Below are positions 52,179-59,912 of a DNA stretch of 64,000 nt, piece by piece. Position 1 is the stretch's first letter; each line of letters starts with the position of its first letter. The translations under genes and the position numbers were made by a program. The DNA comes from Leucobacter chromiireducens subsp. solipictus (GTDB lineage: Bacteria; Actinomycetota; Actinomycetes; Actinomycetales; Microbacteriaceae), in NCBI RefSeq assembly GCF_016758195.1, contig NZ_QYAC01000006.1:62001-126000 (forward strand). The letters run 5' to 3'. The notes beneath the pieces are model-generated. The model was not told the DNA's origin. It saw only the letters and a program-made list of their open reading frames with translations, and ran no database searches.

Positions 52179-53156
52179 ATGAGCACGATCGAGATGGCGG
52201 GGCAGAAGAAGCTCGTCTTGATTTCGGGCCGGGCATACCCCGAGCTCGCCGAGCAGGTGGCCGCCGAACTCGGCGCCGAGCTCGTTCCGACCGACGCACG
52301 CACCTTCGCCAACGGTGAGCTGTACGCGCGGTTCGACGAGAGCGTGCGCGGATCCGACGCCTTCGTCATCCAGTCGCACACGAACCCGATCAACGAGTGG
52401 CTCATGGAGCAGCTCATCATCGTCGATGCGCTGAAGCGCGCCTCGGCGAAGCGGATCACCGTCGTGGCGCCGTTCTACCCCTACTCGCGTCAGGACAAGA
52501 AGGGACGCGGCCGCGAGCCGATCTCGGCACGCCTGGTCGCGGACCTCTTCAAGACCGCCGGCGCGGACCGCATCATGTCGGTCGACCTGCACGCCCCGCA
52601 GATCCAGGGCTTCTTCGACGGCCCGCTCGATCACCTCTTCGCGATGCCCGTGCTGCTCGATCACTTCGAGAAGCACCTGAACCGTGACGACCTCACCGTC
52701 GTCTCGCCCGACATGGGCCGTGTGCGCGTCGCCGACGTGTGTAGCGACCGCCTCGGTGCCCCGCTCGCGATCATCCACAAGCGCCGCGACCCGTCGGTGG
52801 CCAACCAGGCCTCGGTGCACGGCATCGTGGGCGATGTGAAGGACCGGTGGTGCGTCATGGTCGACGACATGATCGACACGGGCGGCACGATCTCGAAGGC
52901 CGCGATGGCGCTCAAGGAGGCGGGTGCGCGCGGCGTGACCATCGCCGCCACCCACGCGATCTTCTCCGGCCAGGCGACCACGCACCTCTCCGCGGACTTC
53001 ATCGACCAGGTCGTCGTCACCGACACGCTGCCGGTGCCCGAGGAGAAGCGCTTCGACAAGCTCACCGTGCTCTCGATCGCACCGCTGCTCGCGAAGGCGA
53101 TCCACGAGGTCTTCGAGGACGGCTCCGTGACCTCGATGTTCGAGGGCGCCGCCTAA
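52179..53156 (+). CDS. prs: Ribose-phosphate pyrophosphokinase
   Basis: PRPP synthetase makes phosphoribosyl pyrophosphate from ribose 5-phosphate and ATP. The 325-residue product has the FANGELYARF segment, VVAPFYPYSRQDKK, DLHAPQIQGFF, and the PRPP loop VMVDDMIDTGGTI. It follows glmU by 45 bp, the usual actinobacterial order. There is no strong Shine-Dalgarno. A hairpin follows the stop. Confidence 0.95.
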   Translation: MSTIEMAGQKKLVLISGRAYPELAEQVAAELGAELVPTDARTFANGELYARFDESVRGSDAFVIQSHTNPINEWLMEQLIIVDALKRASAKRITVVAPFYPYSRQDKKGRGREPISARLVADLFKTAGADRIMSVDLHAPQIQGFFDGPLDHLFAMPVLLDHFEKHLNRDDLTVVSPDMGRVRVADVCSDRLGAPLAIIHKRRDPSVANQASVHGIVGDVKDRWCVMVDDMIDTGGTISKAAMALKEAGARGVTIAATHAIFSGQATTHLSADFIDQVVVTDTLPVPEEKRFDKLTVLSIAPLLAKAIHEVFEDGSVTSMFEGAA

Positions 53157-53188
53157 GCGCCTCGGCCGCGGCCCCGCGCCGCGCACGC

Positions 53189-53237
53189 CACCTCCCGGAC
53201 GGGACCCGACGCCCTGCGTTGGCCCGGCCGGGAGGTG
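53189..53237 (+). terminator. Probable terminator after prs
   Basis: A perfect 10-bp stem (53189-53198 with 53228-53237) starts 32 bp after the prs stop, with a GC-rich 29-nt loop. Confidence 0.55.
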
Positions 53238-53286
53238 TCGTCGTTTTCGGGCCCCGCGGTCCGGCGCGCCGGCCCGGCCGCCCGGC

Positions 53287-53332
53287 CCTGCCGCTGCCGC
53301 CTGCCGCTGCCGCCCGGCGCCTGCCGCTGCCG
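53287..53332 (+). repeat. 13-bp GC-rich repeats
   Basis: CCTGCCGCTGCCG occurs three times exactly (53287-53299, 53300-53312, 53320-53332) just before copy 1 of the 73-bp repeat. Confidence 0.85.
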
Positions 53333-53346
53333 CCCGGCTGCATCTC

Positions 53347-53419
53347 AACCGACGCAATTTATCCAGCGGGAGCCATTTTCTGCCGCATTTGGGTCGGTCC
53401 AGATAATTTGACTCGGTTT
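53347..53419. repeat. 73-bp intergenic repeat, copy 1
   Basis: First of three copies that align without gaps over 73 bp (others at 58920-58992 and 59096-59168). It begins AACCGACGCAATTT and ends AATTTGACTCGGTTT, which are near-inverted ends; the AT-rich ends and a conserved GAGC-N2-TTTTC core stand out in GC-rich sequence. It lies between convergent prs and an APC gene. Confidence 0.8.
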
Positions 53420-53423
53420 CGGT

Positions 53424-53475
53424 GGGGGATCGGGGGTGGGGTGGCACCGGGGCTGGGGTGGTGCTGGGGCTGGGG
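53424..53475 (+). other. G-run cluster, potential G-quadruplex
   Basis: Seven runs of four or five G on the plus strand within 52 bases, separated by 1-7 bases. It directly follows copy 1 of the 73-bp repeat, in the convergent prs/APC gap, which contains no gene. Confidence 0.75.
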
Positions 53476-53516
53476 CGTACGCCGGATCCCGGATCCCGGG
53501 GCGCGCAGAAATGTCG

Positions 53517-53556
53517 ACGGCCCCGCCTCCCGCGCGGTGCGGGGAGGCGGGGCCGT
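53517..53556 (-). terminator. Terminator of the APC gene at 53570-55111
   Basis: A perfect 15-bp stem (53517-53531 with 53542-53556) and 10-nt loop, 14 bp beyond the stop on the minus strand. Confidence 0.75.
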
Positions 53557-53569
53557 ACGTGAGTACCCG

Positions 53570-55111
53570 CTACGGGCGTTCGAGCTCCACGACATCGACA
53601 AGCTCCGTGCCGTACGCGCCGGGCTCGGTACCGTGCCCGATCTGCGCGTAGGTCGCGGGCTTTCGCGCCTTGATCGCCAACGCCCAGATCACGCCGATAA
53701 TACCGGCCGCGAAGATGAGCCCCGGAAGCACGAAGGTGGACGCGCTGGGCTCGTCCTGGTCGAGCATCAGCTGGAAGTTCATCAGGATCATGACGAACAC
53801 CCAGAGCAGCGCGATGCCAGACACGAGCGGAGCGACCACGGTGGTCCACACGCTGAGGCCCCGACGGTTCCGCCGGAAGAAGCCGATCACGGCGGCGGCG
53901 ATCACTGCCATGAGGAGCACGAGCCCCATCGCGCCGGTGTTCGTGAGCCAGGTGAACATGGTCAGCACCGGGTAGAGGAATGCGGCGTCCCCGAGCGCCG
54001 CGGCACCGCCGAAGGCATCCGCCGCGAGCGCGAAACCGATCACCACCACGAGCGCGATGATGGTCTGCGCGACCGAGCCAGCCCACGGGGCACCGGCGCG
54101 GCTGGTGCGTCCAAACCACGCGGGGAGCACCCCCTCGCGTCCGAGGGAGAAGAAGTAGCGCGCGACCGCGTTGTGGAACGACTGCTGCGCGGCGAAGAGG
54201 CTCGTCAGGAACAGCAGCGTCATGATGTCGGAGAACAGTACCCCTACATGGTCGGTCATGAACACGAACATGAGATCGGGGCCGAACTCCTGCGACGACG
54301 CGACGATCTCGGAGGGCCCGATGCCCACGGAGAACGCCCACGCGCTGAACGCGTAGAAGACGCCAATGATGGCGACCGCGGCGTAGGTTGCGCGCGGCAC
54401 GGTCCGCTTCGGGTCCTTGGCTTCCTCGCCGTAGATCGCGGCACCCTCGAAGCCCATGAAGGCGGCGACGCCGAACACGAGGATGATGCCGAGCGACGGG
54501 CCGAACAGGGCGCTCGGGTTGAGGGTCGCGGTCGAGACGCCCTCGGGAGCCGCGGCGATCGCGACGATGTCGAAGATGATGACCACGAGGAACTCGAGCC
54601 CGACCAGGATGCCGAGCACCTTCGCGGAGAGATCCACTCGGTTGACGCCGAGCACGCCCACGACGACGATGCAGAGCAGGATCCAGAGCCACCACGGCGA
54701 GGCGAAGCCGAACTTCGCCTCGAGGAACATGGAGAGCTGGAAGCCGAAGAGACCGTAGATGCCGATCTGCATGGCGTTGTAGGACACGAGGGCGATCAGC
54801 GAGGCCCCGACGCCGAGGGGTCGGCTCAGGCCCTGCGACACGTAGGCGTAGAACGCGCCCGCGTTCGTAATGTGGCGGCCCATCGCGGTGAAGCCGACCG
54901 CGAAGACGGTGAGGATCACGGCGATGAGGAGGAAGCCGAGGGGCACACCCAGCGACTTGGTGACCGCGAAGGACGTGGTGACGCCGCCCGCCACGACGGT
55001 GAGCGGCGCGGACGCGGCGATGATCATCAGGGTGATGGCCGGCACGCCGAGCGTGCGACGACTGAGGCCCGGAGCCTGTCCGGCCTCGGGCGTTGAAGCG
55101 GTGGTGGTCAT
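53570..55111 (-). CDS. APC-superfamily amino acid permease
   Basis: A 513-residue membrane protein with 12-14 hydrophobic helices. SAPLTVVAGGVTTSFAV and GFEGAAIYGEEAKDPKRTVPRATY, read in parts, mark the APC family; the ending differs from the three permeases at 15870-39499 and resembles the permease at 56608. GGAGG lies 8 bp before the ATG. It is transcribed alone from a minus-strand promoter (TTCACC, 18-bp spacer, TAGACT ending at 55183) with an inverted repeat just after the presumed start of transcription. Confidence 0.87.
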   Translation of the reverse strand: MTTTASTPEAGQAPGLSRRTLGVPAITLMIIAASAPLTVVAGGVTTSFAVTKSLGVPLGFLLIAVILTVFAVGFTAMGRHITNAGAFYAYVSQGLSRPLGVGASLIALVSYNAMQIGIYGLFGFQLSMFLEAKFGFASPWWLWILLCIVVVGVLGVNRVDLSAKVLGILVGLEFLVVIIFDIVAIAAAPEGVSTATLNPSALFGPSLGIILVFGVAAFMGFEGAAIYGEEAKDPKRTVPRATYAAVAIIGVFYAFSAWAFSVGIGPSEIVASSQEFGPDLMFVFMTDHVGVLFSDIMTLLFLTSLFAAQQSFHNAVARYFFSLGREGVLPAWFGRTSRAGAPWAGSVAQTIIALVVVIGFALAADAFGGAAALGDAAFLYPVLTMFTWLTNTGAMGLVLLMAVIAAAVIGFFRRNRRGLSVWTTVVAPLVSGIALLWVFVMILMNFQLMLDQDEPSASTFVLPGLIFAAGIIGVIWALAIKARKPATYAQIGHGTEPGAYGTELVDVVELERP

Positions 55112-55147
55112 GTGGATTCCCTCCCGGTCTTGCGGCGTTGCCGACCT

Positions 55148-55168
55148 TGCCAGCGACCCTTGCTGGCA
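55148..55168. promoter_or_regulatory. Inverted repeat in the leader of the APC gene
   Basis: TGCCAGC-N7-GCTGGCA lies about 40 bp upstream of the APC ATG and just downstream of a minus-strand TAGACT box (55188-55183). It could be an operator or an RNA hairpin. Confidence 0.5.
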
Positions 55169-55223
55169 GCACATGCGACTTGAGTCTAGGTACGGGAACG
55201 GGGGAGGTGAAGCGAGAAGCTGT

Positions 55224-55260
55224 GCCGTGCGCGCACGGGACATGACCGCGCGCGCACGGC
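55224..55260 (-). terminator. Hairpin after the dmpA-like gene
   Basis: A perfect 11-bp GC-rich stem (55224-55234 with 55250-55260) and 15-nt loop, 62 bp past the stop of the minus-strand gene at 55322. Confidence 0.6.
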
Positions 55261-55321
55261 TATCCAAATGGACAGTGCGTGCAGCTGAGTGCCTCGGTGG
55301 TGAGGGCTGAGTGGAATCGCG

Positions 55322-56497
55322 CTAATTGCCGCCGAATGCCGCGCGCACCTCTCCGTGTGGGAGCGCAAAACTCGTGTGTCCGGCACGGCCGACCGTGTCA
55401 CGCGCCGCGACCAGCGCGTTCACCACGGCCTCCTCGGTGGCCTCGACAACAGCGGCGAAGAACGGGTCGATGCTGCCCCATGCGACATGCTCCACGGACT
55501 CGGTGATCACCGCATCGGACCCCATGCGCGAGCCGAGCCCACCCACGTTGGCGGTCGAGAATGCCAGGAAGATGTCGCCCGAGAAATGGCTGCCGGTGGT
55601 CCCCGTGCGCGCCAGCCCGAGTGGCACACGGCGAGCGAGGGCGCGGCACTGGTCGGGGAGCAGGGGGGCGTCCGTCGCGACGATCACGATCACGCTGCCC
55701 GCGCCCGGGGTGGCGCGTGCGACCGGCAAGCTGCCGGGTTCTGCGGTGCCGGATCCGGCACCCTGCAGATCCAGCTGGAACCAGTTCTCGGTCTCCATCG
55801 GATTGGGGACCTGCGATTCCCGCCCGAGTGGGCGGCCCTGCACGCGAAGCTCGGTGCGGGAACCGAAGTTTGCCTGGAGGAGGACGCCGACGGTCCAGTG
55901 CTGCGACCCGGAGCGGACCACGCGCGAGGCGGTGCCCGTGCCGCCCTTGAAGCCGTAGCAATTCATGCCCGTGCCGCCCCCGACATTGCCCTCCGCCAGC
56001 GGCCCCCCGCGCGCGTCGTCCAGGGCGCGCGCCGCGTGCTCGGGGTGGACCGTGTTCGCGTTGATGGAGTTCAGGTAGCCGTCCCAGGTCTCGCCCACCA
56101 CGGGGAGCATCCAGGCGGCGGCGCTCTCCGGGTGATGCTCGGCCATCCACGCGTCCACGCCGCGATGCACGGCGCCGACGGCGTGCGAGTTGGTGAGCGC
56201 AATCGGGGCCTGGAGCTGCCCGGACTCCTCGATCCAGCTGCGGCCGGTGAGTTCGCCATTGCCGTTCAAGACCGCGACGCCCGCGGCGCAGGGGCTGCCC
56301 GCTCGTTCGCGGCCGCGCGGCAGGATCGCCGTGACGCCGGTGCGGACAGTGACGGGGGAGTCCTCGATGAGTGTGACGAACCCCACCTCGAGGCCGGGCA
56401 CATCGGTGATCGCGTTCCAGGCCCCCGGAGTGCCGTCGAAGGGGACACCGAGCTCGCGAGCCCGTGGTGCGGGGGTGCGGCGTTCATCATTGAACAT
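55322..56497 (-). CDS. P1 family peptidase (DmpA/L-aminopeptidase D-esterase type)
   Basis: A 391-residue N-terminal-nucleophile-like peptidase of the DmpA/OAT superfamily. The conserved core GNVGGGTGMNCYGFKGGTGTASR, read in parts, and the autoprocessing serine S268 in GSVIVIVATDAPL are present. DmpA cleaves N-terminal L- and D-amino acids from peptides, amides and esters; some relatives cleave beta-peptides. It is divergent from an APC permease (56608), so a peptide or amide may be hydrolysed and an amino acid taken up under shared control. Confidence 0.88.
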   Translation of the reverse strand: MFNDERRTPAPRARELGVPFDGTPGAWNAITDVPGLEVGFVTLIEDSPVTVRTGVTAILPRGRERAGSPCAAGVAVLNGNGELTGRSWIEESGQLQAPIALTNSHAVGAVHRGVDAWMAEHHPESAAAWMLPVVGETWDGYLNSINANTVHPEHAARALDDARGGPLAEGNVGGGTGMNCYGFKGGTGTASRVVRSGSQHWTVGVLLQANFGSRTELRVQGRPLGRESQVPNPMETENWFQLDLQGAGSGTAEPGSLPVARATPGAGSVIVIVATDAPLLPDQCRALARRVPLGLARTGTTGSHFSGDIFLAFSTANVGGLGSRMGSDAVITESVEHVAWGSIDPFFAAVVEATEEAVVNALVAARDTVGRAGHTSFALPHGEVRAAFGGN

Positions 56498-56527
56498 TGT
56501 TCTATCCGTTCACTCGTGCCTAAACTA

Positions 56528-56545
56528 CGGAACACAAAAGTTCCG
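56528..56545. promoter_or_regulatory. Inverted repeat between dmpA and APC genes
   Basis: CGGAAC-N6-GTTCCG lies near the middle of the 110-bp divergent region. A second smaller palindrome, GAACATTGTTC (56492-56502), covers the dmpA start codon. Both are candidate operators for the downstream TetR at 58188. Confidence 0.55.
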
Positions 56546-56607
56546 CGGTGAAATTCGATCGTTGTTCAAACATTACCCGGATCTCGTGGAGAGACAAAGG
56601 AGTCCGT

Positions 56608-58110
56608 ATGTCCAGCTCACCCGCACCACCGATTTCCTCCGACGTGGGGTCGGCGGCGAGCTCCACCCAGCTCGCCGCCGGCCGCCTCGGCACCTGGGAC
56701 ATCATCTTCTTCGTGGTGTCCGCGGCCGCGCCGCTCACCGTTGTCGTGAGCGGTGCCGCGACCTCATTCCGGCTCGGCGGGCTCGGCGCCCCGGGCGCGA
56801 TGGTGTTTAGCGGGATCGTCCTCATCCTCTTCGCGCTGGGGTTCACCGCGATGTCCAAGAGCGTGCGCAACGCCGGGGCCTTTTACGCCTACGTGTCCCG
56901 CGGCCTCGGAAAACCATTCGGACTCGGAGCCTCCTCGGTCACCGTGTTCGCCTATATCGCGCTCGTGATCTCCTTCTACGGTTTCATCGGCTTCTTCGCC
57001 CAGTTCACCTTCGCCGAACTGCTCGGCATCGACCTGCCCTGGGGTGTGTGGTCACTGATCGCGGTCGCCATCGTCGCGTTCCTGGGCTACCGCAAGATCG
57101 ACGTCGGCGCGAAGGTTCTCGCGGTCCTGCTCACGCTGGAGGTCGGGATCCTGCTCGTGCTCGCGATCGCGACGATCGCAAACGGCGGCCCCGAGCCCTG
57201 GAGCGCCGCGCCGTTCAGCCTGGACAACGTGTTCTTCGCGCCCACCGCGGGGGCACTGTTTGTGGTCGGATTCGGCGCCTACCTCGGCTTCGAGAGCACC
57301 GCGATCTACGCCGAGGAAGCGAAACGTCCGGAGCGCACCGTGCCGCGCGCCACGATCATCGCGGTGGTGTTCCTCGCCGTGTTCTACGGCTTTACGTTCT
57401 GGATTCTCACCGTCGCCTTCGGCGTCGACGGGATCCTGCAGCTCGCCGCGAGCGACTCCTTCGAGACGATGGTGATCGACGGCACCGAGCAGATCGCGGG
57501 AGCCTGGGCGAGCTATGTGATGAAGATCCTCATCGTCACGAGCTTCTTCGCGTGCGTGCTGTCCTTCCACAACGCGAGCACGCGCTACCTGTTCGCCCTC
57601 GGCCGGGAGGGCCTGCTGCCGCGGGCGCTCGGCCGCACCACTGCGCGGACGCAATCGCCGGCGGTCGCCAGCCTCACGCTCTCCGTGTTCTCCGCGATCG
57701 GAGTGCTGATCGCGATCATCCTCGGCGCGGACCCGTTCCTCGGGCTTGCGCTCTGGACCTACGCGACGGGGGTGCAAGGCCTGGTGTTCGCGCAGGCGCT
57801 CGCGGCGATTGCCGTGGTGTGGTACTTCCTGCGGGATCGCCGCGGCCACAGCATCTTCCGGGTGGTCATCGCCCCCATCCTGGGTGCGATCGGGCTGGTG
57901 GTCGGCTTCACCCTGATCGTCACGAACTTCGAAGTCGTAACCGGCCTCGAGGGCCCGATCAATCAGGTGCTCCTGTTGCCAACGCCGATCCTCTTCATCG
58001 CCGGGATCATCGTGGGGCTCGTCATCAAGGCGCGCCGCCCCGAATACTACGCCGGGCTCACCGAGTCGGTCACGGTGCCCGTCGAGGCGCTGCCTGAGGA
58101 GCGAAGCTAG
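56608..58110 (+). CDS. APC-superfamily amino acid permease
   Basis: A 500-residue 12-helix permease. SAAAPLTVVVSGAATSFRLGG and GFESTAIYAEEAKRPERTVPRAT, read in parts, closely resemble the same regions of the permease at 53570-55111, so the two flanking permeases around dmpA are paralogues. AAAGGAG lies 5 bp before the ATG. It is divergent from dmpA and followed 77 bp later by a TetR gene. Confidence 0.88.
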   Translation: MSSSPAPPISSDVGSAASSTQLAAGRLGTWDIIFFVVSAAAPLTVVVSGAATSFRLGGLGAPGAMVFSGIVLILFALGFTAMSKSVRNAGAFYAYVSRGLGKPFGLGASSVTVFAYIALVISFYGFIGFFAQFTFAELLGIDLPWGVWSLIAVAIVAFLGYRKIDVGAKVLAVLLTLEVGILLVLAIATIANGGPEPWSAAPFSLDNVFFAPTAGALFVVGFGAYLGFESTAIYAEEAKRPERTVPRATIIAVVFLAVFYGFTFWILTVAFGVDGILQLAASDSFETMVIDGTEQIAGAWASYVMKILIVTSFFACVLSFHNASTRYLFALGREGLLPRALGRTTARTQSPAVASLTLSVFSAIGVLIAIILGADPFLGLALWTYATGVQGLVFAQALAAIAVVWYFLRDRRGHSIFRVVIAPILGAIGLVVGFTLIVTNFEVVTGLEGPINQVLLLPTPILFIAGIIVGLVIKARRPEYYAGLTESVTVPVEALPEERS

Positions 58111-58187
58111 TGCCGTATGCGGGGCCGGTCGTGGGTTCTCGATCCGGCCGACCCCGGTGACGCGCCGGATCCTCTAGGCTGAGCCTC

Positions 58188-58814
58188 ATGAATGCGACCG
58201 CGCGACGCCGACTGGAGCGCCGAGACGAGATCGTCCAGGCCTTCTGGCGGGTCGCGCGGACGCGGCCGCGCGGGGGCGTCAACGTCCGGGCCGTCGCAGC
58301 CGAGGCAACGATGAGCCCCGCGAACGTGCTGCACTATTTCGGCAGTTTGAACGAGCTGCAGATCACCGCGCTCGCCGGGGCGATGGAAGAATTCGCGGAG
58401 CGGCGGCAGGCGATCCTCGACCGTTCCGAAAGCGCGTCGGCCCGGGTCGCCGCCATGATCGAGGCTGGCGTCCCGGACGAGATCAGCGACGAGTTGCGGC
58501 ACGTCTACGAGAGCGTCGCGATCCTGGCCGATCACCCGGAGTACCGGCCGGCGCACCGCGCGCTCGTGGAACGCCAGATCATGCTCTACCGCACCCTGAT
58601 CGAGATCGGCGCGGGCACGGGGGAGTTCACGCTCGCCTCGCCGCCCGGCGTGATCTCCCGGAACCTGGTCGCACTCGAAGACGCCTACGACCTGTACCCG
58701 TTGATCGGCGACCGGACCCCGCGCGAAGAGTGCCGCGCCGCGGTGCGCAGCTACGCGGAACTCGCCCTGGGGCTCGCCCCGGGCGCTCTCCCCGCGGCGG
58801 CGAGTCGGCCGTAG
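58188..58814 (+). CDS. TetR family transcriptional regulator (BetI-like)
   Basis: A 208-residue TetR protein with the HTH at about residues 30-55 (RAVAAEATMSPANVLHYFGSLNEL). It follows the APC permease on the same strand but has its own leaderless promoter: TAGGCT (58175-58180) ends exactly 7 nt before the ATG. It is the likely regulator of the dmpA/APC divergent pair. Confidence 0.9.
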   Translation: MNATARRRLERRDEIVQAFWRVARTRPRGGVNVRAVAAEATMSPANVLHYFGSLNELQITALAGAMEEFAERRQAILDRSESASARVAAMIEAGVPDEISDELRHVYESVAILADHPEYRPAHRALVERQIMLYRTLIEIGAGTGEFTLASPPGVISRNLVALEDAYDLYPLIGDRTPREECRAAVRSYAELALGLAPGALPAAASRP

Positions 58815-58831
58815 CCGCCCGCCCGGGGCCG

Positions 58832-58901
58832 AGCTCCCGGCCCCGGACTCCCGGCCCCGGACTCCCGGCCCCGAGCTCCCGGCCCCGAGCTCCCGGCTCC
58901 G
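58832..58901 (+). repeat. 14-bp tandem repeat, five copies
   Basis: Five 14-bp units with the frame (AG/GA)CTCCCGGCCCCG follow the TetR stop; the fifth has one change. It ends 18 bp before copy 2 of the 73-bp repeat. Confidence 0.9.
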
Positions 58902-58919
58902 GCCCCAAGCCACTGCCCA

Positions 58920-58992
58920 AACCGAGTCAATTTCGCCAACACGAGCTGTTTTCGGCGGAATTATCATCGTCCTAGATAATTTGCCTCAGTTT
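58920..58992. repeat. 73-bp intergenic repeat, copy 2
   Basis: Begins AACCGAGTCAATTT and ends AATTTGCCTCAGTTT. With two flanking bases the ends read CCCAAAC...GTTTGGG, so the inverted repeat extends beyond the 73 bp here. It lies in the 366-bp gap between convergent tetR and a membrane-protein gene, which holds no gene. Confidence 0.8.
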
Positions 58993-59095
58993 GGGCGAGC
59001 CGGCCGGCCAGTGCGGCCAGGATTGGGTGCGCCCGGGAAGCCGGCGCCCGGTGCCCGGGTGGCCGGTGGCCGGCCCCGGCACACCTGGGCAGCCT

Positions 59096-59168
59096 CCCCG
59101 AGGCATTTTCCCCAGACCGAGCGATTTTCCGCGGTATTTTGCTCGGGAGAGATAAATTGGCTCAGTAT
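59096..59168. repeat. 73-bp intergenic repeat, copy 3
   Basis: The most diverged copy. It still aligns without gaps to copies 1 and 2, keeping CGAG-N-CA-N-TTTTC, CGAGC-N2-TTTTC and AGATAA-N-TTG-N-CTCAGT. It lies 103 bp after copy 2, just before the end of the convergent membrane-protein gene. Confidence 0.75.
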
Positions 59169-59180
59169 GGGTGGGGGCGC

Positions 59181-59912
59181 TCAGCCGTGGCCCGCGAGCA
59201 TCGCGAGCAGCATTGCGGCCATACCCCCGGCCTCCGCGGCGGAGAGGGCACGCCGGTCCCGGATGGCGAGCATCCCCAGCCCGAGGAGCGCGGCCACCAA
59301 CATGACGACCGCTGCGAGGGGGAGTGCCGCGGTGAGTGTCGCCGCACCGTGATGCCCCGGAACTGCGGCCGCACCAGGAGAGGACCCCGCGCCGTCGCCG
59401 TGGCCGAGCACGAGCCAGGCGGTTGCGGGATATGCGAGTGCCGCGGCAACCATCACCGAGCGTGGCAGCCATGCGTACCGCCGAATCGGCGCTGACTTCC
59501 GCGCGGAGGGCAGGCGCGGATGGCGGATCAGCGCAGACCCCGGCGCTGGTACGGTTCCCGCTGCCCCCGGCCCCGGCCCCGCCGCCGGCCCCGCCGGCCC
59601 CGGCCCCTGCACCGCTGCCCCCGGCACCGCCGGCCCCGGCACCGCCACCCCCGGCACCGCCGCCGCATGAACCGGTGTGGAATCCGGCCTCACCGCACCG
59701 TCGCGCCGCAGCCCGAGACCCAGCAGCACCGCCGCCGCGATCAGAGCCCCAGCCCAGAGCACCGGCGCAACGATCCGGCTCACGGTGAGGTCGATCATGG
59801 CGAGCAACATGACGGTCGAGGCCAGGATCCCGATCCACCGCCTTCCGATGACGGCGCCGCCGAGGCAGAGCGCCCCGGCGGCGACCATCACGACCCCTGG
59901 GAGGAGCCCCAC
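59181..59912 (-). CDS. Membrane protein of unknown function with Pro/Gly-rich linker
   Basis: A 243-residue protein I do not recognise. It has about three hydrophobic helices in residues 1-70, a central proline/glycine/alanine-rich linker (about 75-120, repeating P-G-x-A-V type steps), and two or three more helices near the end, one after ARKSAPIRRYAWLPRSV. The GTG start is 3 bp after the aldehyde-dehydrogenase stop, preceded by AGGGG, so it is the third gene of the amine-oxidase operon. A role in amine uptake or in support of the oxidase is possible but unsupported. Confidence 0.65.
   Translation of the reverse strand: MGLLPGVVMVAAGALCLGGAVIGRRWIGILASTVMLLAMIDLTVSRIVAPVLWAGALIAAAVLLGLGLRRDGAVRPDSTPVHAAAVPGVAVPGPAVPGAAVQGPGPAGPAAGPGPGAAGTVPAPGSALIRHPRLPSARKSAPIRRYAWLPRSVMVAAALAYPATAWLVLGHGDGAGSSPGAAAVPGHHGAATLTAALPLAAVVMLVAALLGLGMLAIRDRRALSAAEAGGMAAMLLAMLAGHG

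Follow-up and report, generated by a model that had tools for sequence, protein, structure and literature searches.

Three copies of a dispersed intergenic element lie in the window analyzed here, a 64-kb stretch of the Leucobacter chromiireducens subsp. solipictus genome (C8:62001-126000), and the family as a whole occupies 47 places in the assembly (3,537,946 bases, or 3.54 Mb, in 11 contigs). Each element is an 84-bp unit in which two tandem 19-bp words face two inverted ones, giving four words arranged around a dyad. From sequence comparison, we give about an even chance to the reading that the element is a four-site binding platform for a putative sequence-specific DNA-binding protein whose specificity would shift between lineages.

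A preliminary description of this stretch had singled out three gapless 73-bp segments as an unrecognized dispersed element, and both parts of that claim are borne out. The segments align pairwise without gaps at 51 to 52 of 73 positions, whereas no ungapped match of a copy elsewhere in the window exceeds 35 of 73 (copies and their reverse complements set aside), and the right-end word, allowing up to three mismatches, occurs five times versus 0.03 expected from shuffles. A model built from the three copies gave 91 matches in the genome, mostly on both strands, corresponding to 47 places, 3 of them inside the window. A second model, built from 46 copies, recovers the identical 47 places, all on both strands (best-strand E, 5e-21 to 8e-13). 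The three segments are thus confirmed as members of a dispersed family, and further genomic copies, on whose existence the proposal had hung, are present. The window copies are also AT-rich islands, as described (GC of 0.44 to 0.52 versus 0.71 for the window). Copies across the genome differ at a mean of 31.3 of 84 positions on the better strand, and fewer than 15 differences separate only 3 of 1,035 pairs; the copies are old.

All but one of the copies (46 of 47) align ungapped over 88 columns centered on the dyad, and conservation spans positions -42 to +42; the 73 bp first recognized is a shared gapless block, but the conserved length is really 84 bp. The strongest columns include C at -39 (98%) and C at -42 (91%). 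CCGAG recurs at -34 to -30 and at -15 to -11, a 19-bp period, and 20 bases separate the inner CCGAG from the inner CTCGG. Consensus positions denoted W are A or T nearly always, the outer ends mostly read C-R-Y-C, and, judged by eye, the consensus word lacks a hairpin. The consensus thus combines dyad symmetry with an internal 19-bp direct repeat. The near-inverted ends of the preliminary description are present (compared with its own reverse complement, each of the three copies is identical at 46, 43, or 42 of 73 positions, respectively), but the symmetry is not confined to the ends: the inner part is also a dyad, hence the four words. One variant copy (C8:327844; L046) is a near-perfect palindrome (35 of 37) with its center shortened by exactly 10 bp, roughly a helical turn; it was left out of the alignment and of the arm-pairing, ortholog, word-coupling, and target-duplication analyses, and two contig-end near-duplicates (C9:238915 and C9:239119) were also left out of the word-coupling and target-duplication tests.

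The same layout recurs beyond the genus. The pattern CCGAG-N14-CYGAG-N10..22-CTCRG-N14-CTCGG, scanned over an 84,980-species collection, matched at least 119 stretches; among the matches listed, 102 are of Micrococcales type by their record titles (3 of them uncertain, two from the metagenome-assembled genome [MAG] PROP3 and one from an Actinomycetales MAG) and 17 are from other taxa. Eight genera were confirmed as Micrococcales by look-up, and we take Microbacterium, Cryobacterium, Curtobacterium, and the other remaining genera to belong there as well. The CCGAG core, the 19-bp period, and the dyad are also seen in Cellulomonas, Microbacterium, Naasia, and Brevibacterium, among others. An inner gap of 22 characterizes 88 of the 102 listed Micrococcales-type matches versus 2 of the 17 others, where the spread resembles that of chance matches. 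Across 396 genomes of the order, the 19-bp period matches 77 sites in 17 genomes and an 18-bp period 4 sites in 4 genomes; one of these control matches (G389) looks by eye like a real element of that period. At the level of the class, 3 of 197 genomes match, each from the same family, and other orders contribute 0 of 181. Because the pattern demands four exact cores, these genome fractions are lower bounds. A family-level search with the R3 model, which took only the best 11 candidates per genome, is a weak test; it matched 14 of 398 genomes, and several of the hits in other genera resemble chance matches when inspected. Three palindromes from other genera of the family (L169, L184, and L170) keep the 19-bp period with different cores or central spacing, suggesting a class wider than the CCGAG pattern.

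Within a genome the four words share a core and a tail, and the tail is lineage-specific: Cellulosimicrobium carries ATAGGACC, Cellulomonas hominis ATCGGTGC, Actinotalea caeni TTCGCACCGT, and Naasia TGCGCCC. A Leucobacter congener (G065) carries 19 places with the same layout and a different word, GARACCGAGCCNATTGTTC. Twelve elements read in a Cellulosimicrobium genome comprise nine of RTAGGACC type and three of CGCGG type, with none mixed and single words deviating; another genome (G650) holds several word types. One orthologous gap (L203/L234), whose flanking proteins match at 85 and 97%, keeps an element in both C. hominis and Cellulomonas sp. ACRRI, with ATCGG in three of four words in the former and ATAGG in all four in the latter. 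In this one case, the word set appears to have shifted in concert at a fixed position.

Element positions are conserved between L. chromiireducens and Leucobacter sp. 7(1), in which the 46-copy model gives at least 82 matches, corresponding to at least about 41 places, 29 of which we examined. For 25 of these 29, one or more long stretches of flank are shared with an L. chromiireducens element; one of the remainder has a weak match, one matches through the element alone, and two have none. In each of four aligned gaps, one species has a single element and the other has two. The 23 ortholog pairs differ at a median of 20 of 84 positions, compared with a mean of 33.7 for non-orthologous copies. 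Substitution, evaluated in 18 pairs (those differing at no more than 26 positions), falls as column information rises (rho = -0.69, p = 4e-7), from 32% in columns below 0.6 bits to 7.8% in columns above 1.2 bits. Orthologous elements are 0.78 similar, a figure raised by the exclusion of the other five pairs, versus 0.61 for non-orthologous ones, and flanking 40-mers are 0.52 similar versus 0.43 (17 pairs). Low change in conserved columns next to near-background flanks indicates that the copies were constrained while their surroundings drifted.

All 47 elements are intergenic (overlap of at most 12 bp), as judged by a simple codon-usage gene caller rather than a standard annotation: 26 lie in convergent gaps, 15 in tandem gaps, 2 in divergent gaps, and 4 at contig ends. 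The 22 window gaps longer than 84 bp, the two element gaps included, divide into 5 convergent, 7 tandem, and 10 divergent, so that the elements show a convergent excess (26 of 43 versus 5 of 22; Fisher p = 0.005) and a divergent deficit (p = 0.0002). The preliminary description had placed all copies in convergent gaps; this holds for the three window copies (the stops flanking copy 1 are at 53156 and 53570, and copies 2 and 3 share the gap 58814-59181) but for only 26 of 43 in the family. The 102 listed Micrococcales-type matches include 50 convergent, 35 tandem, 5 divergent, and 3 in a gene, the rest being at an edge (the edge count of 13 in the placement run includes 4 from other taxa). Among these listed matches, 50 of 90 elements are convergent versus 18 of 241 remaining gaps (all gaps longer than 84 bp minus element gaps), and median distances to the flanking stops are 41 and 37 bp. 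The three copies and their neighbors, in window coordinates, are as follows.

53341 to 53424, no strand: copy 1 element (84 bp), flanked by prs and an amino acid permease gene, with the dyad between 53382 and 53383
53344 to 53362, plus strand: copy 1 word 1, outer left (19 bp)
53363 to 53381, plus strand: copy 1 word 2, inner left
53384 to 53402, minus strand: copy 1 word 3, inner right, inverted
53403 to 53421, minus strand: copy 1 word 4, outer right, inverted
58914 to 58997, no strand: copy 2 element, dyad between 58955 and 58956
58917 to 58935, 58936 to 58954, 58957 to 58975, and 58976 to 58994: copy 2 words
59090 to 59173, no strand: copy 3 element, dyad between 59131 and 59132
59093 to 59111, 59112 to 59130, 59133 to 59151, and 59152 to 59170: copy 3 words
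52179 to 53156, plus strand: prs (ribose-phosphate pyrophosphokinase), left neighbor of copy 1
53184 to 53248, plus strand: strong hairpin followed by a T-rich stretch, 3' of prs (-42.9 kcal/mol, z = -5.5), probable prs terminator
53515 to 53560, minus strand: strong hairpin 3' of the permease gene (-42.8 kcal/mol, z = -6.4), probable terminator
53570 to 55045, minus strand: amino acid permease gene, right neighbor of copy 1
58188 to 58814, plus strand: TetR_N-like gene, left neighbor of copies 2 and 3, under the Pfam cut-off (20.6 versus 24 bits)
59181 to 59912, minus strand: predicted gene with no Pfam match, right neighbor of copies 2 and 3

Short GC-rich repeats that vary among species flank the elements at 53290-53335 and 58820-58905. 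In the prs gap, two other genomes, G018 (L141) and G004 (L138), have long palindromes of different sequence, and the Leucobacter sp. 7(1) copy 3' of prs (L140) ends after about 40 bp; the sequence beyond the break presumably resembles an IS30-type insertion sequence. A plasmid search with the glmU-prs region returned distant homologs alone and was not used. The spread across contigs looks uneven, with 11 copies on the 399 kb of C7 and only 1 on the 222 kb of C10. Two closely similar element pairs lie at the ends of two contigs (C7:398224/398429 and C9:238915/239119; L039 and L045), suggesting that a longer stretch is duplicated where the contigs break.

Word uniformity, the dyad, sequence constraint, and lineage-specific words, together with the lack of support for other readings, leave recognition in trans by a DNA-binding protein as the candidate explanation, and among the identities offered in the preliminary description a protein-binding structure fits best. 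Under this model, the four words of each element, two in tandem per arm with the arms inverted, would be recognized on double-stranded DNA by a putative trans-acting protein; the word set of a genome, or part of that set, would carry the tail that this protein prefers, and a shift in its specificity would shift the word set at fixed chromosomal positions. Sites would be kept just past gene ends, mainly between convergent genes and rarely in divergent (promoter) gaps. Their most likely job would be to hold a symmetric multi-subunit complex as a two-sided boundary, which might block residual read-through or anchor topology or chromosome structure. More tentatively, and leaning against it on balance, we consider that such platforms could be order-wide, served by a putative protein family of fast-evolving specificity that would rewrite dozens of sites per genome in concert, with some genomes holding two or more protein/word pairs.

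Several observations weigh against a protein platform. Palindromic pairing occupies 70.0% of cells versus 67.1% (sd, 0.7) in shuffles, above 500 of 500, with 145 double changes versus 115.5; the compensatory base changes that the preliminary description had proposed to look for therefore exist but are modest. Arms fold better with their natural partner than after swapping (-35.6 versus -32.5, sd 0.76, on one strand; -34.4 versus -30.6, sd 0.86, on the other), the two outer words are coupled (z = 3.7, 44 copies), and one ortholog pair (C9:173865/L103) has three matched changes in both arms. Coupling, excess pairing, and matched changes are also compatible with a hairpin in DNA or RNA or with template switching, which in palindromes is one possible cause of arm coupling. 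Elements are clustered, with 11 neighbor distances below 5 kb versus 3.0 expected (maximum of 10 in 2,000 simulations), and some form doublets in single gaps; both features fit copying. Distribution among congeners is patchy: besides the genome itself, the 46-copy model matches 14 of 53 at E of at most 0.1, strongly only in Leucobacter sp. 7(1), which nonetheless overturns the restriction to one species suggested by the three-copy model (1 of 40 genomes, own included). The congener with the GARACCGAGCCNATTGTTC word shares few positions, with 8 of its 19 elements having any BLAST partner and about one locus clear (C11:99982/100570 with L126). Finally, no binding protein was pinpointed and no recurrent neighbor gene stood out, annotated neighbors being mostly metabolic or transport genes; across species, the largest cluster of neighbor proteins has six members and no assigned identity, and no common regulator gene was seen by eye beside the divergent exceptions (two here and six elsewhere, five elsewhere in a first gene-calling run).

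The arm signal is limited in size. Inner words vary independently of each other (z = 1.1) and of outer words (z = -0.6 to 0.9) in the same 44 copies. The match surplus per copy falls from 1.1 to 0.4 when the five copies of highest symmetry are dropped and vanishes when ten are, a shrinkage biased by choosing copies on the statistic itself. Across 62 elements from 11 other species, arm matches number 30.0 versus 28.9 (4 of 500 permutations as high), an excess due in part to at least two of these species holding more than one word type. The chief signal thus appears to be dyad symmetry of the consensus, as at a protein site, and the outer-arm coupling is weak but real and not fully explained; together with clustering, it keeps other readings open.

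One such reading is a terminator acting in both directions, as already offered in the preliminary description, or an RNA-processing hairpin, with transcription entering from either side. Convergent 3'-end location, the short distances to stops in the listed Micrococcales matches, strong predicted hairpins in those taxa (species means, -46 to -68 kcal/mol), coupled outer arms, and excess pairing would all suit it, yet we consider it improbable, and as a main role in this genome it lacks support. RNAalifold finds 0 consensus pairs in the 46 copies, the three window copies fold at z = -3.6 to 0.0 over both strands, Rfam covariance models applied to window positions 53000-59600 at E up to 5 give two weak matches, neither at an element, and RNA pairing needs no likeness between words 1 and 2. 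An RNA hairpin was rejected as the main constraint on the grounds of the empty consensus fold, with the real arm-arm excess remaining. Copy 1 sits between two strong hairpins, and element-facing genes keep hairpins of their own (at most -22 kcal/mol) before the element as often as other genes do (64% versus 49%; n = 44 and 41; p = 0.37); the element is not a needed terminator in this genome. The corresponding figures in other species are 62% and 51% (n = 60 and 163), a weaker test there because many gaps are too short for a separate hairpin. Convergent location, multiple sites, and dyad symmetry also recall a gyrase or nucleoid-protein site of the bacterial interspersed mosaic element (BIME) kind, which would relax positive supercoils between convergent genes. 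However, a conserved enzyme would not predict lineage-specific words, and the patchiness among close relatives also speaks against this reading, which we judge very unlikely.

Rather unlikely, in our estimation, is a non-autonomous mobile element, either a miniature inverted-repeat transposable element (MITE) or like the REPINs, which are paired repetitive extragenic palindromic (REP) sequences. Each end would consist of two 19-bp transposase sites, spread would have occurred in trans and now be mostly fixed, and lineage bursts would explain the words. MITEs are short elements with inverted arms and no coding capacity, as is the element described here. Dispersal in many copies, several subfamilies per genome with one word type within each element, doublets, clustering, and patchy distribution all favor mobility, as does the prs-permease gene pair of two congeners (G013 and G001), which has a hairpin 3' of prs and no element (30 loci compared). 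Against it, target site duplication does not exceed the control (best z = 2.7 versus 3.5 with shuffled partners; 44 copies, k of 3 to 9, offsets 34 to 55), and no solitary arms occur in 274,210 bases scanned, overlaps included, at a cut-off that retains about 90% of true arms. The Y1_Tnp domain (PF01797) of REP-associated tyrosine transposases (RAYTs) is absent from 10 of 10 element-bearing genomes (this one and nine others) in a search that matches 5 of 14 control genomes and was confined to this transposase type; on this basis a REP/RAYT system was rejected, and with it that form of the REP-like unit first offered. No autonomous relative with the same ends was found in the stretches scanned, the transposase search covered the Y1 type, and the best-scoring candidates of the genome scans gave the 47 places. 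Genes between close pairs, scanned in 10 of 13 cases, encode no transposase; the products are Maf, TfoX_N, enolase-like, VIT1, enoyl-CoA hydratase, amidohydrolase, Peripla_BP_3, alanine dehydrogenase, and isochorismatase proteins and one without a match. Viral contigs hold 0 exact-pattern matches, and the copies, despite their divergence, keep their length and consensus without gaps, with conserved positions and constraint in orthologs. There is no sign of recent insertion, and the MITE-like unit of the preliminary description lacks support as a current process, although it may be the origin of the elements. If the elements are mobile after all, they would form a class of transposons whose ends are made of four words and for which no enzyme is known.

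If bound as the protein platform model proposes, the elements would mark a system that spans the chromosome and sits at the ends of genes in some members of a large bacterial order. They would also be a natural record, in several lineages, of one DNA-binding specificity and dozens of sites changing together, a question that could be tested with the elements as ready-made bait sequences.

No description of the element was found in titles or abstract openings of a literature set that lies mostly outside subscription journals. Among known systems, REP/REPIN-RAYT repeats are similar in being dispersed intergenic inverted doublets, with several groups per genome, mainly in convergent and tandem gaps, according to the parts of the sources consulted (PMC3116915, PMC3733652). 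The element differs in its 84 bp of four 19-bp words, with no within-word hairpin by eye, where a REP unit would itself be a hairpin tagged GTAG or CGTC, and no Y1 transposase, and in its gap-free, constrained copies, which keep orthologous positions between two species. REPs, including CGTC REPs that lack a transposase, are described as preferring convergent and tandem gaps (PMC3733652); location alone therefore cannot separate the element from REPs, whereas word structure and constraint do. CGTC-tagged REPs come nearer in having no dedicated transposase known and in lying near the 3' ends of convergent open reading frames, but they are presented as hairpins of 20 to 40 bp with a CGTC tag and a CCA tail, and Actinobacteria is not among the five phyla named for them, a word absent from the main text (PMC3733652). 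The stoperators of cluster A mycobacteriophages, as far as the portions consulted describe them, are many dispersed asymmetric sites for one protein, their motifs differ between relatives along with the repressor, and the repressor blocks elongation (PMC6550527, PMC9283540). Stoperators span 13 bp, belong to phage genomes, and mostly share one orientation, whereas the elements described here are four-word dyads on bacterial chromosomes, with no exact match in viral contigs; by analogy, stoperators offer the closest working model for the element (PMC6550527).

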